A stretch of 64,000 bases of DNA from Bacteroidia bacterium (GTDB taxonomy: Bacteria; Bacteroidota; Bacteroidia; J057), in assembly GCA_033391075.1 (NCBI GenBank), contig JAWPMV010000001.1, positions 496,001 to 560,000 of the forward strand, written 5' to 3'. Below the pieces are notes generated by a model. That model was not told the origin of the DNA. It was given only the letters and a program-made list of their open reading frames with translations, and ran no database searches. A program made the position numbers and the translations under genes. Shown here piece by piece: positions 19,572-47,579 of this stretch (position 1 is the first letter of the stretch; the number at the start of each line of letters is the position of its first letter).

Positions 19572-20876
19572 ATGGACAAAATAGGCATCATATTTAAAAG
19601 AGAATATCTCAATATGGTCAGGAAGAAGAGCTTCTTGCTGGCTACCTTTTTAGTACCCCTGGGATTTGCCGCATTGATCGGTATTCAGGTGGCATCGGCG
19701 GTTTTTGTCGAAAAAGAAAATTATGATCTACTGATTGTAGAAGACGACACTTATGCGATTACAAGTCGCATAAATAAAGGTGAAAACTTCAAAGTAATTC
19801 CCATAAAACCGAAACGTGATTTCATCGCGCAGCGGGATAGTTTGCTTGAGCGGGTAAAGAAAAATGAGAACGAAGTTTACCTCTATTATCCAGCAACTTA
19901 TCTGGAAAAAGAAAATATTACAGCTACACTTCATAGCTCCAAAAAACTCAGTCAGCAAGTAAGACGTGAAGTTGAGCGCAAACTGGAGCGAGCGATCAAA
20001 GACTATAAGACTGAACTCGTTGGAATCAGCAAAGAGCAGTTGGATAAGACCGATTTTGAATTGGATCTCCAGACCAAAAGTGGTGAAACGGAAAATAGTA
20101 CCAGCGAAATCATGGCTTTGGCTGTCGGTGCAGGTACAGCCATCATCATTTATATGTTGATTGCGATTTATGGCGGAATTTTAATGCAGGGAGTAATAGA
20201 GGAGAAAGCCAACAGGATTGTTGAGGTCATTGTTTCCTCTGTAAGACCTTTTCAATTGCTAATGGGGAAAACCCTTGCACTGGCCTCCGTTGCGATCACT
20301 CAGCTCATCTTATGGGGCTTGTTATCTATGGTAGTCTATTTAATCATGATACCCTTTATCGCAAGTTCTGGAATTAATCCTTCCGATCTTCAACAGCCGG
20401 GTATGGAAATGTCTGCCAGCGAAGCGGAAAATATGCTGATCGAATTGAGAAGTGCCAATTGGAATGTCCTCTGGTTCTTTCCTATCTATTTCCTCGGAGG
20501 ATTTTTCCTCTATGGATCTTTGATGGCAGCTGCTGGTTCAGCCGTTGATAATATTCAGGATGCACAGCAATTTACCATCCCCATTACCCTTCCTTTGATG
20601 TTGCCTTTATTTTTCTATCCCAACATCATCCAGAATCCCAATGGAATGTTTGCATCCATTACCTCGCATATACCCTTTTTCTCACCCATGATTATGCCTA
20701 TGCGAATAGGCCTGGGCTCCGTCCCCTGGTGGGAAATCGCCTTGTCAATAGTTATCCTTATTCTATCCTTCCTGGCTTGTGTGTGGGTCTCTGCAAAGAT
20801 TTACCGCACGGGTATTCTCATGTATGGAAAGAAACCGAGCTTCAAGGAGATATTCAAGTGGTTGAGGTACAATTAG
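19572..20876 (+). CDS. ABC-2 type permease (NatB-like)
   Basis: 434 residues. One N-terminal membrane helix (about 20-42), a large extracytoplasmic domain (about 45-175), then five or six C-terminal membrane helices. The segment VIEEKANRIVEVIVSSVRP with LLMGK after the second helix is the hallmark of the NatB/YhaP branch of ABC-2 permeases. It pairs with the ATPase encoded immediately upstream to form a homodimeric exporter. The gene is followed by an octamer-repeat hairpin at 20898. The upstream exported protein (17667) may be a partner or substrate-linked protein. Confidence 0.9.
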   Translation: MDKIGIIFKREYLNMVRKKSFLLATFLVPLGFAALIGIQVASAVFVEKENYDLLIVEDDTYAITSRINKGENFKVIPIKPKRDFIAQRDSLLERVKKNENEVYLYYPATYLEKENITATLHSSKKLSQQVRREVERKLERAIKDYKTELVGISKEQLDKTDFELDLQTKSGETENSTSEIMALAVGAGTAIIIYMLIAIYGGILMQGVIEEKANRIVEVIVSSVRPFQLLMGKTLALASVAITQLILWGLLSMVVYLIMIPFIASSGINPSDLQQPGMEMSASEAENMLIELRSANWNVLWFFPIYFLGGFFLYGSLMAAAGSAVDNIQDAQQFTIPITLPLMLPLFFYPNIIQNPNGMFASITSHIPFFSPMIMPMRIGLGSVPWWEIALSIVILILSFLACVWVSAKIYRTGILMYGKKPSFKEIFKWLRYN

Positions 20877-20897
20877 CATAGCTAATTGCAAGTGTTG

Positions 20898-20969
20898 GCG
20901 TGTTAGTGTTTTAGGGTATTAGCGATAATTTTTTTAGAATAACGCTAAGCCTCTGATACTCTAACACGC
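20898..20969. repeat. Octamer-periodic inverted repeat, unit A
   Basis: Two 27-base arms (20898-20924 and 20943-20969) are complementary at 21 of 27 positions and flank an AT-rich loop. The left arm is built of 8-base units GTnTTAGn, the right of the complementary nCTAAnAC type. It starts 22 bases after the permease stop codon and could act as a terminator or stabiliser. Related units lie at 21047, 21781, 22464 and 47524. Confidence 0.7.
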
Positions 20970-21046
20970 TTCTGCATTTATACATCTATTCATGGAATCG
21001 CATAGCCTGTATGTACCCAAAACTTCCTTTCATCCCTGCAAAACCA

Positions 21047-21093
21047 GAACACGAGAACACCTGAACCCAAGAACCCTAATACTCTAACACGCC
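21047..21093. repeat. Tandem octamers GAACACnn
   Basis: Successive 8-base units GAACACGA, GAACACCT, GAACCCAA, GAACCCTA followed by ATACTCTAACACGCC. The 3' part (21074-21092) is complementary to 20898-20916 at 17 of 19 positions, a better match than the adjacent right arm of unit A, so alternative pairings exist. The rest of the 20877-21208 gap holds no ORF. Confidence 0.65.
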
Positions 21094-21156
21094 TTCACTT
21101 CCGCACGTTAAAACAATCCCCCTGCACGCTTATTCATTAGTGCTAAACAGGCCAGC

Positions 21157-21208
21157 AATCGTGGCGTATGTTTGATTAAACAACAGTCAAACATTTTAAG
21201 TCACGATT
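21157..21208 (+). promoter_or_regulatory. Inverted repeat abutting the lipoprotein start codon
   Basis: AATCGTG (21157-21163) and TGTTTGA (21169-21175) are mirrored by TCAAACA (21187-21193) and CACGATT (21202-21208); the last base of the repeat directly precedes the ATG at 21209. The left arm also contains an exact -7 element TATGTTTG (21167-21174) without a clear -33 box. If that promoter is used the repeat is an operator; if transcription starts further upstream it is an RNA hairpin that could block ribosome access. Confidence 0.5.
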
Positions 21209-21778
21209 ATGAGCAAGCCCCAACTTTTCAACCTGATCAAACTGTTTAGCCTCAGTATAGCAGCTTCCTTATTTCTATCTTCATGTGTAGTCGACCAGGG
21301 ACCAATAGGCCCTCCCGGACGAGATGGACGTGATGGAAATGCAGAAGTATTTAGCATCAATTATCTCGCAGAAGAATCCGATTGGTATGATGTAGGTTTT
21401 CCTGGTGATCCCGGATATTACATCGCCCTCGATCTGGATGTTCCTGAAATTGACCAGGACATTGTAGAAAATGGAGTTGTACTCGTTTACTATCGCGAGA
21501 CCCCAACCAACGCCTGGACAACCCTGCCTTATACCTTTATCTCTCACGATCCTGAGTACATCGAAAAACTCGATATGATCTATGCCCTCGAATTCGTAGG
21601 AATTCAAAGCATGGCCTCAGACCGCAGCGCAGTTCCTTATACCGGTACCTTCCGCGTCATTGTAGCGCCCGGTATTGGCTTAGGCAAGAGTGCCAGTGGT
21701 AAAGTGGATCTTTCCTATGAATCAGTAGCCAAGCAACTCGGTATTACCGAAGACATGCAAAGCTTCCGGTCGATATAG
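21209..21778 (+). CDS. Lipoprotein with short collagen-like segment
   Basis: 189 residues. The signal peptide ends in LSSC with lipidated Cys26. Directly after it is a short collagen-like Gly-x-y stretch, GPIGPPGRDGRDGN (31-44), which acts as a spacer in a widespread group of Bacteroidota lipoproteins. The remaining ~140 residues are strand-rich with Trp and Tyr and no catalytic motif. Surface or periplasmic exposure on the outer membrane is expected; function is unknown. The start is fixed by the signal peptide. Octamer-repeat hairpins lie on both sides of the gene. Confidence 0.8.
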   Translation: MSKPQLFNLIKLFSLSIAASLFLSSCVVDQGPIGPPGRDGRDGNAEVFSINYLAEESDWYDVGFPGDPGYYIALDLDVPEIDQDIVENGVVLVYYRETPTNAWTTLPYTFISHDPEYIEKLDMIYALEFVGIQSMASDRSAVPYTGTFRVIVAPGIGLGKSASGKVDLSYESVAKQLGITEDMQSFRSI

Positions 21779-21780
21779 AA

Positions 21781-21864
21781 GAGTGTTAGCGTACTAGTGT
21801 GTTAGGGTTCAAGGGTGATAAATATCCTTCCCTAACACACTAGCACCCTAAAACACAAACACTC
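21781..21864. repeat. Octamer-periodic inverted repeat, unit B
   Basis: It begins 2 bases after the lipoprotein stop codon. The core arms CTAGTGTGTTAGGG (21794-21807) and CCCTAACACACTAG (21830-21843) are perfectly complementary over 14 bases, and outer 8-base units (GTGTTAGC, CTAAAACA, CAAACACT) extend the pairing imperfectly. It fills most of the gap to the next gene. Confidence 0.8.
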
Positions 21865-21900
21865 ATCATTTACCCCTACAACCTTCTAACAACTACAAAC

Positions 21901-22458
21901 ATGAAAAGCAAAGCCCTGTTAATTGTAATTATCAGCCTATTCTCATTTTTTACCAGCCAGGCCCAAAGAAATCTCGCTCCCGAATTTGACAGCCGACATA
22001 AAAACATCTATGCCGAACTTTTTGGGAGTAATATCATCGCAGGTGTAAACTTTGATATGCGCCTCAATAAAGGCCAGAACGACGGTATCGGATTTCGCGT
22101 AGGTGTGGGAGGTCTCAGTGTTTCAGGCGTAGACCAAAACACAGAACTTAGCGTAGGAGTCGTAACCTTTCCTTTGGAAATAAATACCGTAGTCGGCAAG
22201 CGTCGTAGCAGCCTGATCGCAGGTGCAGGACTCTTACCCATCTACGCCACTGTTTCTGGTCAGGGAGAACTCACCAATTACGAATATGTATCCGGTGATG
22301 GTTTTGGCCTGGCAGGAGGATTCCTTACCCTGGGATACCGACATCAACCCCTCAAAAATGGAATCATGTTTCAATTCAACTGGAACCCTATGATCCTCAG
22401 AGGAAGTGGATTCAATGCCGGATGGATCGGTCTGGGAGTGGGAGTGGGTTTCAAGTAA
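21901..22458 (+). CDS. Outer-membrane beta-barrel protein, function unknown
   Basis: 185 residues with a signal peptide (1-21, ending SQAQ). The mature protein alternates short amphipathic strands with Gly and Asn turns (GIGFRVGVGGLSV, IMFQFNWNPMI) and ends in GLGVGVGFK, an aromatic-containing terminal strand of the kind recognised by the BAM machinery. Its size fits an 8-strand barrel of the OmpA/OmpW size class. No functional residues can be named. It may be cotranscribed with the collagen-like lipoprotein gene if the hairpin between them does not terminate. Confidence 0.78.
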   Translation: MKSKALLIVIISLFSFFTSQAQRNLAPEFDSRHKNIYAELFGSNIIAGVNFDMRLNKGQNDGIGFRVGVGGLSVSGVDQNTELSVGVVTFPLEINTVVGKRRSSLIAGAGLLPIYATVSGQGELTNYEYVSGDGFGLAGGFLTLGYRHQPLKNGIMFQFNWNPMILRGSGFNAGWIGLGVGVGFK

Positions 22459-22463
22459 GAGAC

Positions 22464-22544
22464 GTGTTGGTGTGTTAGGGTGTTTGTGTATTAGAGATAA
22501 GAGCAATCAAACACTAACACCCTAATACTCACAACCGCTAACAC
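22464..22544. repeat. Octamer-periodic inverted repeat, unit C
   Basis: It begins 5 bases after the barrel gene stop. The left part is four 8-base units (GTGTTGGT, GTGTTAGG, GTGTTTGT, GTATTAGA); the right part contains CTAACACC, CTAATACT and CTAACAC in the opposite sense. Several registers of pairing are possible. Confidence 0.7.
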
Positions 22545-22580: not shown

Positions 22581-22606
22581 GCCAGTCCTCCGGGGCTGGC
22601 TTTTTG
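22581..22606 (+). terminator. Terminator before fdhD
   Basis: GCCAG (22581-22585) pairs with CTGGC (22596-22600), with additional G/C pairing inside, followed by TTTTTG. It separates the barrel-protein transcript from fdhD. Confidence 0.65.
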
Positions 22607-30838: not shown

Positions 30839-30908
30839 GCAAAAACCGGCAAGATGTTAAACCAGCTGCACTTTCTGCCCCGATCACCAAATCTTGCGTG
30901 CCAGCGCC

Positions 30909-47523: not shown

Positions 47524-47579
47524 GTGTTCTGGTTACTTTCTAAGAAAGTAAACCCGAACACCAGAACACATGAACACTG
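47524..47579. repeat. Hairpin with tandem GAACACnn octamers
   Basis: Outer arms GTGTTCTGG (47524-47532) and CCAGAACAC (47561-47569) and inner arms TTACTTTC (47533-47540) and GAAAGTAA (47544-47551) are each perfectly complementary. The right side carries a 9-base insertion and three tandem 8-base units ending in GAACAC (47554-47577), the same unit seen at 21047. It lies between the convergent cupin and TonB-receptor genes and probably terminates both. Confidence 0.75.

Follow-up and report, generated by a model that had tools for sequence, protein, structure and literature searches.

The window analyzed here, a 64,000-nt stretch (C1:496001-560000) of a 9.49 Mb Bacteroidota assembly (G000), carries three hairpins composed of degenerate 8-nt units, each located on the 3′ side of one of three successive genes. 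These octamer hairpins are real and genome-wide, forming a class of gene-end elements with a fixed inverted arm order and an 8-nt register. The three self-complementary arrays and the perfect 14-bp core at 21794-21843 that an earlier note had described are all present: the hairpins occupy 20892-20970, 21780-21864 and 22464-22544 (elements 1, 2 and 3), and in element 2 CTAGTGTGTTAGGG (21794-21807) pairs with CCCTAACACACTAG (21830-21843). RNA folding yields -35.9, -39.7 and -30.7 kcal/mol for elements 1, 2 and 3, corresponding to z values of -5.7, -8.1 and -4.1, with 0 of 200 shuffles equally stable in each case.

The window contains two more features of this class: positions 21036-21114 form an array that lacks a pairing partner, and a fourth hairpin spans 47524-47577. 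A search of the window against Rfam returned no match to curated families. Coordinates of all features are collected in the table.

Table. Octamer features and neighboring genes in the window (position 1 is the first letter of the window)
Feature	Position	Strand	Remark
Gene upstream of element 1, ABC-2 family transporter	19572..20876	+	Pfam PF12698
Element 1, 5′ arm (GTGTTGGCGTGTTAGTGTTTTAGGGTATTAGCG), NGTGTTAG-type octamer	20892..20924	-	15 nt past stop of ABC permease gene
Element 1, 3′ arm (ACGCTAAGCCTCTGATACTCTAACACGCT)	20942..20970	+	
Unpaired mixed array, NNGAACAC dialect (CAGAACACGAGAACACCTGAACCC) passing into CTAACACN dialect (CCCTAATACTCTAACACGC)	21036..21114	+	
Gene upstream of element 2, 189 aa	21209..21778	+	no Pfam match at E 0.001
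Element 2, 5′ arm	21780..21820	-	directly past stop of gene 21209-21778
Element 2, 3′ arm	21830..21864	+	holds one side of 14-bp core
Gene upstream of element 3, 185 aa	21901..22458	+	no Pfam match at E 0.001
Element 3, 5′ arm	22464..22496	-	5 nt past stop of gene 21901-22458, linker GAGAC
Element 3, 3′ arm	22511..22544	+	
Ordinary U-tract terminator (GCCAGTCCTCCGGGGCTGGCTTTTT) downstream of element 3	22581..22605	+	from sequence; terminator scan also flags gap
Fourth hairpin, NNGAACAC dialect, 5′ arm (GTGTTCTGGTT)	47524..47534	-	from sequence; under scan threshold
Fourth hairpin, 3′ arm (AAACCCGAACACCAGAACACATGAACAC)	47550..47577	+	outer end 4 nt from minus-strand ORF stop

Extent, order and position of the octamer elements

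The sequence read amounts to 2.46 Mb, comprising four contiguous tiles (1.64 Mb, the first containing the window) and 41 stretches of 20 kb picked for holding a pattern match. Across the whole genome, CTAACACNCTAANACNCTAA has 44 exact matches and none in the reversed control, and the array search that the earlier note had proposed finds many further copies, with 460 matches of CTAAYACNCTAAYACNCTAAYAC at up to 3 mismatches (overlapping matches counted separately) and 2 for the backwards pattern. A position-weighted octamer scan of the tiles detects 58 arms at ≥25 bits and 73 at 20 bits, compared with 0 and 7 in reversed sequence, respectively. Joining strong arms with opposite neighbors no more than 110 nt apart yields 69 hairpins and 45 single arms, with 23 of the 69 hairpins located in the tiles.

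A typical arm is composed of about four octamers (~34 nt), with NGTGTTAG on the 5′ side and CTAACACN on the 3′ side. All 69 hairpins follow the order GTGTTAG-loop-CTAACAC; a genome-wide search for GTGTTAG-N(1-30)-CTAACAC finds it 24 times on each strand and once in the control, and finds the opposite order nowhere. Arm length peaks at four units (96 of 165 strong arms), and 44 measured units span 70-216 nt. Octamer positions 1, 3, 4, 6 and 7 are 92-99% conserved and positions 2, 5 and 8 vary; the level of conservation is inflated because the scan favors the consensus, while the contrast between positions is also seen with an equal-weight scan. The described constancy of the period against varying bases therefore holds. 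Growth by slippage, proposed alongside it, fits a few arms: at least four identical consecutive units occur in just 6 of 165, and the other 159 still hold the 8-nt register.

Three dialects have AACAC as their common core (GTGTT in the opposite arm) and differ in a 3-nt linker, NCT, NNG or TAY, with CTAACACN representing one of the three. Scanning the tiles for the core alone gives 90 arms, against 3 in reversed sequence, and the GTGTT arm comes first in 27 of 27 resulting pairs. Distances between successive AACAC cores in the tiles are 8 nt in 114 cases and 16 nt in 67, and no other distance between 5 and 15 accounts for more than 13. For the NNG dialect, the genome gives 165 matches and its control 5. 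Some hairpins combine arrays of different dialects (B 1269534 and D 7584530). An unsupervised test, in which the sequence past 703 stop codons in the tiles was folded, reveals 140 hairpins of at least 20 bp, where one between convergent genes can count twice, once from each side. A significant arm period is seen in some of them: it is 8 in 26 hairpins and 6, 7 and 9 in 4, 1 and 1, and no other value between 4 and 12 occurs. When intergenic stretches of the tiles are examined without folding, a lag of 8 appears at 12 places, and no other lag between 4 and 15 appears at more than 3. Separately, gene-end hairpins with a ~6-nt unit of the CAAGTT type, a possible further dialect, are present in the tiles at C1:675230, C1:614450 and C1:7591094.

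The elements are preferentially positioned at gene 3′ ends, as had been claimed from the window. A facing stop codon lies within 10 nt of, or overlaps, 41 of 69 hairpins; the expected number of 24.3 is high because many gaps are short, and the test was therefore restricted to hairpins with more than 40 nt of slack, among which 17 of 42 are near the facing stop (3.3 expected; 0 of 20,000 simulations). The same placement test for start codons gives 3 observed and 3.1 expected. The hairpin typically starts 0 to 8 nt past the stop codon, and between convergent genes this can hold at both of its ends. For at least six such gene pairs (A 314342, C 6893487, L036 2311046, L056 6059241, L060 6508649 and L062 7187440), the 84-109 nt between the stops correspond to the hairpin plus 0-8 nt on each side. 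None of the 69 hairpins was judged to lie within an open reading frame (ORF), and one of 27 in the wider core-scan set was.

Pairing between the arms

Both arms belong to the same dialect in 23 of 27 hairpins, with a permutation mean of 12.2 and none of 20,000 permutations reaching 23. When all dialects are pooled (23 pairs), own partners pair better than foreign ones, with 3 of 10,000 permutations as stable. Within the CTAACACN dialect, the mean for own partners among 52 strong pairs is -28.7 kcal/mol versus -30.4 kcal/mol in permutations, and the permutations at least as stable number 9,981 of 10,000 for these pairs, 9,694 for all 65 pairs and 6,517 for 13 new ones. The advantage of own partners is likewise absent in the tiles alone (14 CTAACACN pairs and 6 NNGAACAC pairs).

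The lack of an own-partner gain within a dialect means that there is no sign of compensatory change or of arm-to-arm gene conversion at the variable bases, and the stems arise from the shared word rather than from tuning of those bases. Of the two processes that the earlier note had invoked here, selection for pairing agrees with the data at the level of the dialect and fails within it, and growth by gene conversion between arms finds no support. We do not claim an avoidance of perfect pairing, for which an initial z of +3.5 weakened as elements were added and was gone in the 13 new ones. Among single variable bases, the innermost units are identical in 0 of 41 pairs (2.75 expected), a borderline value, with other positions nearer chance; the longest perfect run, 9.43 versus 9.31 in permutations, does not differ.

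Related words in other genomes

CTAACACNCTAANACNCTAA is absent from 39 relatives, including 12 from the same family, and within these 12 family members neither CTAAYACNCTAAYACNCTAAYAC (up to 2 mismatches), the NNG dialect, nor CTAACACN and NNGAACAC arrays were found; the NNG dialect is also absent from Desulfonema magnum. One genome of the family, G010, carries three consecutive copies of AATGANNN at 209 places, with none in the control; the core of this word is AATGA. The AATGANNN pattern is absent from G000, from G002, which belongs to the genus of G010, and from nine of ten further family members, G007 having 2; G002 also has none of the CTAACACN and NNGAACAC patterns. In 64 kb of G010, AATGA recurs at 8 nt in 21 cases and at 16 nt in 14, with at most 6 at other distances from 5 to 15, and the same core shows no 8-nt spacing preference in G000. 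One clear AATGA hairpin begins right after a stop codon, and the link of this word to stop codons rests on one or two cases. Degenerate words of period 7 (GAATGAT, AACCCTG and AATTGAG types) are also seen in G010, forming 7 stretches in 7.2 kb of intergenic sequence (L217-L220; e.g., L218 near 4205 and 5465).

The AACAC grammar recurs, with the same inverted order, in more distant genomes. In G319, which belongs to a different class of the phylum, the AACAC octamer matches 41 times and its control never, and the minus arm precedes the plus arm at all four places with opposite arms within 200 nt. In Desulfonema magnum (NZ_CP061800.1), a TAACAC unit of 7-8 nt matches 1,135 times, against 0 in the control, and 6 of 6 pairs have the same inverted order; in 5 of these 6, all from match-chosen loci, a facing stop lies no more than 9 nt from an outer end. 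Stricter grouping leaves 3 of 10 within 12 nt of a stop, with 0.7 expected (478 of 20,000 simulations). Unlike in G000, the unit is mostly 7 nt with mixing of 7 and 8, arrays and loops are longer, and strict 8-nt AACAC spacing is not enriched (18 versus 15 in the control). The TAACAC amplification in this genome is massive and inverted at gene ends (L079, L121, L078 and L070), and the literature, covered as titles and the beginnings of abstracts, yielded no description of these arrays.

A cross-phylum match list of 71 stretches is mostly composed of plain tandem repeats without preference for stops (6 of 46 versus 4.0 expected, after removal of 19 arrays that were located at an edge, lacked a flanking ORF on either side or fell inside an ORF), and the inverted order is shown in this list by Desulfonema magnum and a few metagenome-assembled genome (MAG) loci. 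Near-homogeneous (CTAACACA)n arrays of up to 165 nt are present on three contigs of Candidatus Brocadia MAG_8 (L074, L083 and L131). In a survey of the phylum, 15 of 395 genomes have a match and 15 a control match, and because these counts are equal, single matches elsewhere are meaningless.

Readings of the elements and comparison with known systems

We give about an even chance to the reading that the elements are 3′-end hairpins resembling repetitive extragenic palindromic (REP) sequences, which stabilize, end or insulate transcripts, and which most likely act as RNA in the 3′ untranslated region. Each arm would comprise some four octamers in tandem, which combine a fixed 5-nt core (GTGTT in the 5′ arm, AACAC in the 3′ arm) with a dialect-specific 3-nt linker. 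The long stem, broken at the variable bases, would cap the transcript against 3′ exonucleases; the hairpin might mark or cause the transcript end in place of a U-tract terminator, could insulate convergent genes, and would lie within reach of the terminating ribosome. Units would be gained and lost through occasional duplication, and selection would preserve the core, the spacing and the inverted order and not the exact pairing of variable bases. Transcription of the elements, their stabilizing or terminating role, and selection as the reason for their form are what we infer from sequence. Consistent with replacement of terminators, gaps with an element at the stop contain U-tract terminators in 6 of 42 cases, whereas gap-matched controls predict 14.2 (a count this low arises in 135 of 50,000 simulations); the deficit is partly expected because the element occupies room in the gap. 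TTT follows just 9 of 122 arms, the outer flanks being mostly CTT, TTC, GTT and GTC; a T run is not part of the element as a rule, in agreement with the initial view that it is not an ordinary terminator.

Several observations weigh against this reading. Genes were defined as longest ORFs, without a gene finder, and 46 of the 69 hairpins stem from match-selected stretches. More than 10 nt separate 28 of the 69 pairs from any facing stop, 9 of these facing none, and a few of the 41 stop-near hairpins overlap the end of a called ORF. The 45 single arms, 12 of which were judged to lie in ORFs, have no clear preference for stops, with 4 of 29 near one and 1.6 expected (1,181 of 20,000 simulations). 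A U-tract hairpin is also present near composite repeat modules (23 of 114 elements, described below) and at element 3, and most gene-end hairpins in G000 are of another build, so that the octamer hairpin is not the general mode of ending genes. The pairing data count here as well, since a pure stem function would predict favored pairing of variable bases, which is not seen within the dialect.

The 8-letter spacing is shared with a second genome of the family, where another word is repeated, and this suggests that the hairpins represent a type of gene-end element not described before. A wider proposal, which we regard as speculative and rather unlikely, is that the family has a system for writing or maintaining palindromes at gene ends, with an 8-nt grammar of five constant and three free bases, the word being replaced between and within genera; an undescribed factor would measure 8 nt of RNA or DNA at stops, or an equally undescribed copying mechanism would extend arms in 8-nt steps. 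Word turnover is what points to it, with AACAC in G000, AATGA in G010 and none of the tested patterns in G002. Against it, tandem intergenic words in 64 kb of G010 have period 7 in 7 stretches and period 8 in 2, the 8 long gene-end hairpins of G010 include one each with period 4, 5, 6 and 8, and periodic gene-end hairpins are found in 0 of 12 in G003 (100 kb) and 0 of 2 in G006 (31 kb). The predominance of period 7 in G010 also favors passive, microsatellite-like growth, a rather unlikely alternative, in which slippage makes arrays, snap-back copying inverts them, purifying selection leaves the intergenic ones and stops are near because gaps are short. Some long homogeneous arrays fit it, among them (CTAACACT)n, located at C1:4382404-4382483, and (CTAATACC)n, located at C1:7753257-7753359, as do the plain CTAACAC-type tandem arrays of many other genomes, which show no stop preference, and the dialects differ from genome to genome. 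Passive growth sits poorly, however, with the 159 arms that keep register without four identical units, with the clustering of changes at positions 2, 5 and 8, with the length peak at four units and with a stop proximity above that of uniform in-gap placement.

Mobile or selfish palindromes of the REP or miniature inverted-repeat transposable element (MITE) class, with a tyrosine transposase or some other enzyme moving them, would account for many extragenic copies that are not found in the relatives examined, for the CGTC tag at 9 of 122 arm ends (0.5 expected; enriched, not general) and for the position of 23 of 114 elements no more than 50 nt from a larger composite repeat, whose copies do have sequence in common. 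This origin is nevertheless improbable. Loops were compared in 64 of the 69 hairpins, and simple elements, outside composites, share two matches of 10-11 nt only; loops that are nearly all unrelated, with no common internal sequence beyond these two matches, argue against a recently moving MITE, in line with the earlier note, which had recognized no known MITE. The GTAG tag occurs at 0 of 122 arm ends, and the sole Y1_Tnp gene found in the genome (C1:1090665-1090943) has no octamer element within 5 kb, the nearest being at 1085024-1085147; a link to a tyrosine transposase was accordingly rejected. A signal read at the DNA level, for which bacterial interspersed mosaic elements (BIMEs) offer a comparison, appears less probable still; gene ends would then carry binding sites for a protein that recognizes the octamer at 8-bp intervals, for example a nucleoid protein, or sites that recruit a topoisomerase. 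The strong conservation of five octamer positions beside three variable ones would suit such a protein, although it is partly built into the arm-finding scan; wobble-preserving A-to-G changes are rare (0.3-5.2%), and near composites the hairpin sits between terminator-like hairpins and might be little transcribed. The unrelated AATGA core in G010, of the same family, makes a conserved protein of one specificity unlikely. Neisseria uptake sequences come in species dialects, and their inverted pairs serve as terminators; a DNA uptake sequence of this kind would explain words unshared with relatives and inverted pairs at gene ends, and is very improbable, as single CTAACAC copies, tested for this dialect, are not enriched outside arrays (31 in 1.64 Mb on both strands versus 33.2 from sub-words; rank 139 of 140 among letter permutations). 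An all-frame stop function, the arrays giving TAA or TAG in all frames of both strands, was rejected as the main reason because the required T at position 2 varies (0.66 T) and the NNGAACAC dialect lacks such stops.

The composite repeat is a non-coding unit of ~350-450 bp composed of two outward-facing modules, often around an octamer hairpin. Each module contains a GC-rich hairpin (GCAGAGCCCATCGGG..GGGGCGGC..GGCTTTGGGCTCTGC or GCTGCTGCATCGGG..GGCTTTGCAGCAGC), GATTTTTG and a T-tract hairpin; examples are located at L034:9567-9964, L037:9893-10208, L055:9865-10174 and L067:9633-10078, with a partial module in the window at 30840-30907. Modules have 64 matches in 2.46 Mb. In 26 aligned modules, the structure drawn by eye has 62 cells changed on both sides versus 25.4 in shuffles (0 of 500 as high) and no excess of pair types (17 versus 20.5), with B modules badly aligned in helix 1. 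An Rfam search of 7 loci gave a tRNA as the only match.

Gene ends in Bacteroidota seem little mapped, the phylum being named in none of the 12 papers considered out of 167, and the open-licence literature, covered as titles and the beginnings of abstracts with long lists in part, yielded no description of an octamer gene-end element. Elements that occur throughout a genome, keep a strict inverted order and a strict 8-nt register, and use a word that changes between genomes of one family open a testable question: how repeated gene-end elements arise, how they switch their word, and whether they replace terminators. Strong hairpins without covariation within a dialect also call for caution when structure is inferred from repeats.

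Rho-independent terminators resemble the octamer elements in placing a hairpin at gene ends, also between convergent genes; here, the T run is usually absent, the arms comprise four octamers and U-tract terminators are fewer beside the element. Cyanobacterial short tandemly repeated repetitive (STRR) sequences are intergenic heptamer tandem repeats. Intergenic direct repeats of the heptamer TAACTGA are described in Beggiatoaceae, cyanobacteria and five Bacteroidetes; no particular RNA structure is predicted for them, and in one of the genomes most lie a short way upstream of start codons (PMC4679880). Both kinds of heptamer repeat share with the octamers a short tandem unit between genes, a patchy distribution over phyla and the lack of an assigned function, whereas the heptamers are direct repeats of 7 nt and the octamers are degenerate, of period 8 and arranged in inverted pairs at stop codons. 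A paper on Desulfonema ishimotonii infers that filamentous gliding bacteria have exchanged genes, and its main text does not contain the words "heptamer" and "intergenic" (PMC6390638).

REP palindromes are divided into GTAG and CGTC superfamilies (PMC3733652), and E. coli REPs less than 16 nt from the stop codon are reported to reduce translation (PMC12306157). The elements of G000 differ from REPs and BIMEs in their ~34-nt arms of tandem octamers, without GTAG, with rare CGTC, with no whole-unit consensus of 14-40 nt, with no linked tyrosine transposase and with no common loop. They nevertheless are, like REPs and BIMEs, high-copy extragenic palindromes located downstream of genes or between convergent genes, part of them within 15 nt of a stop codon.

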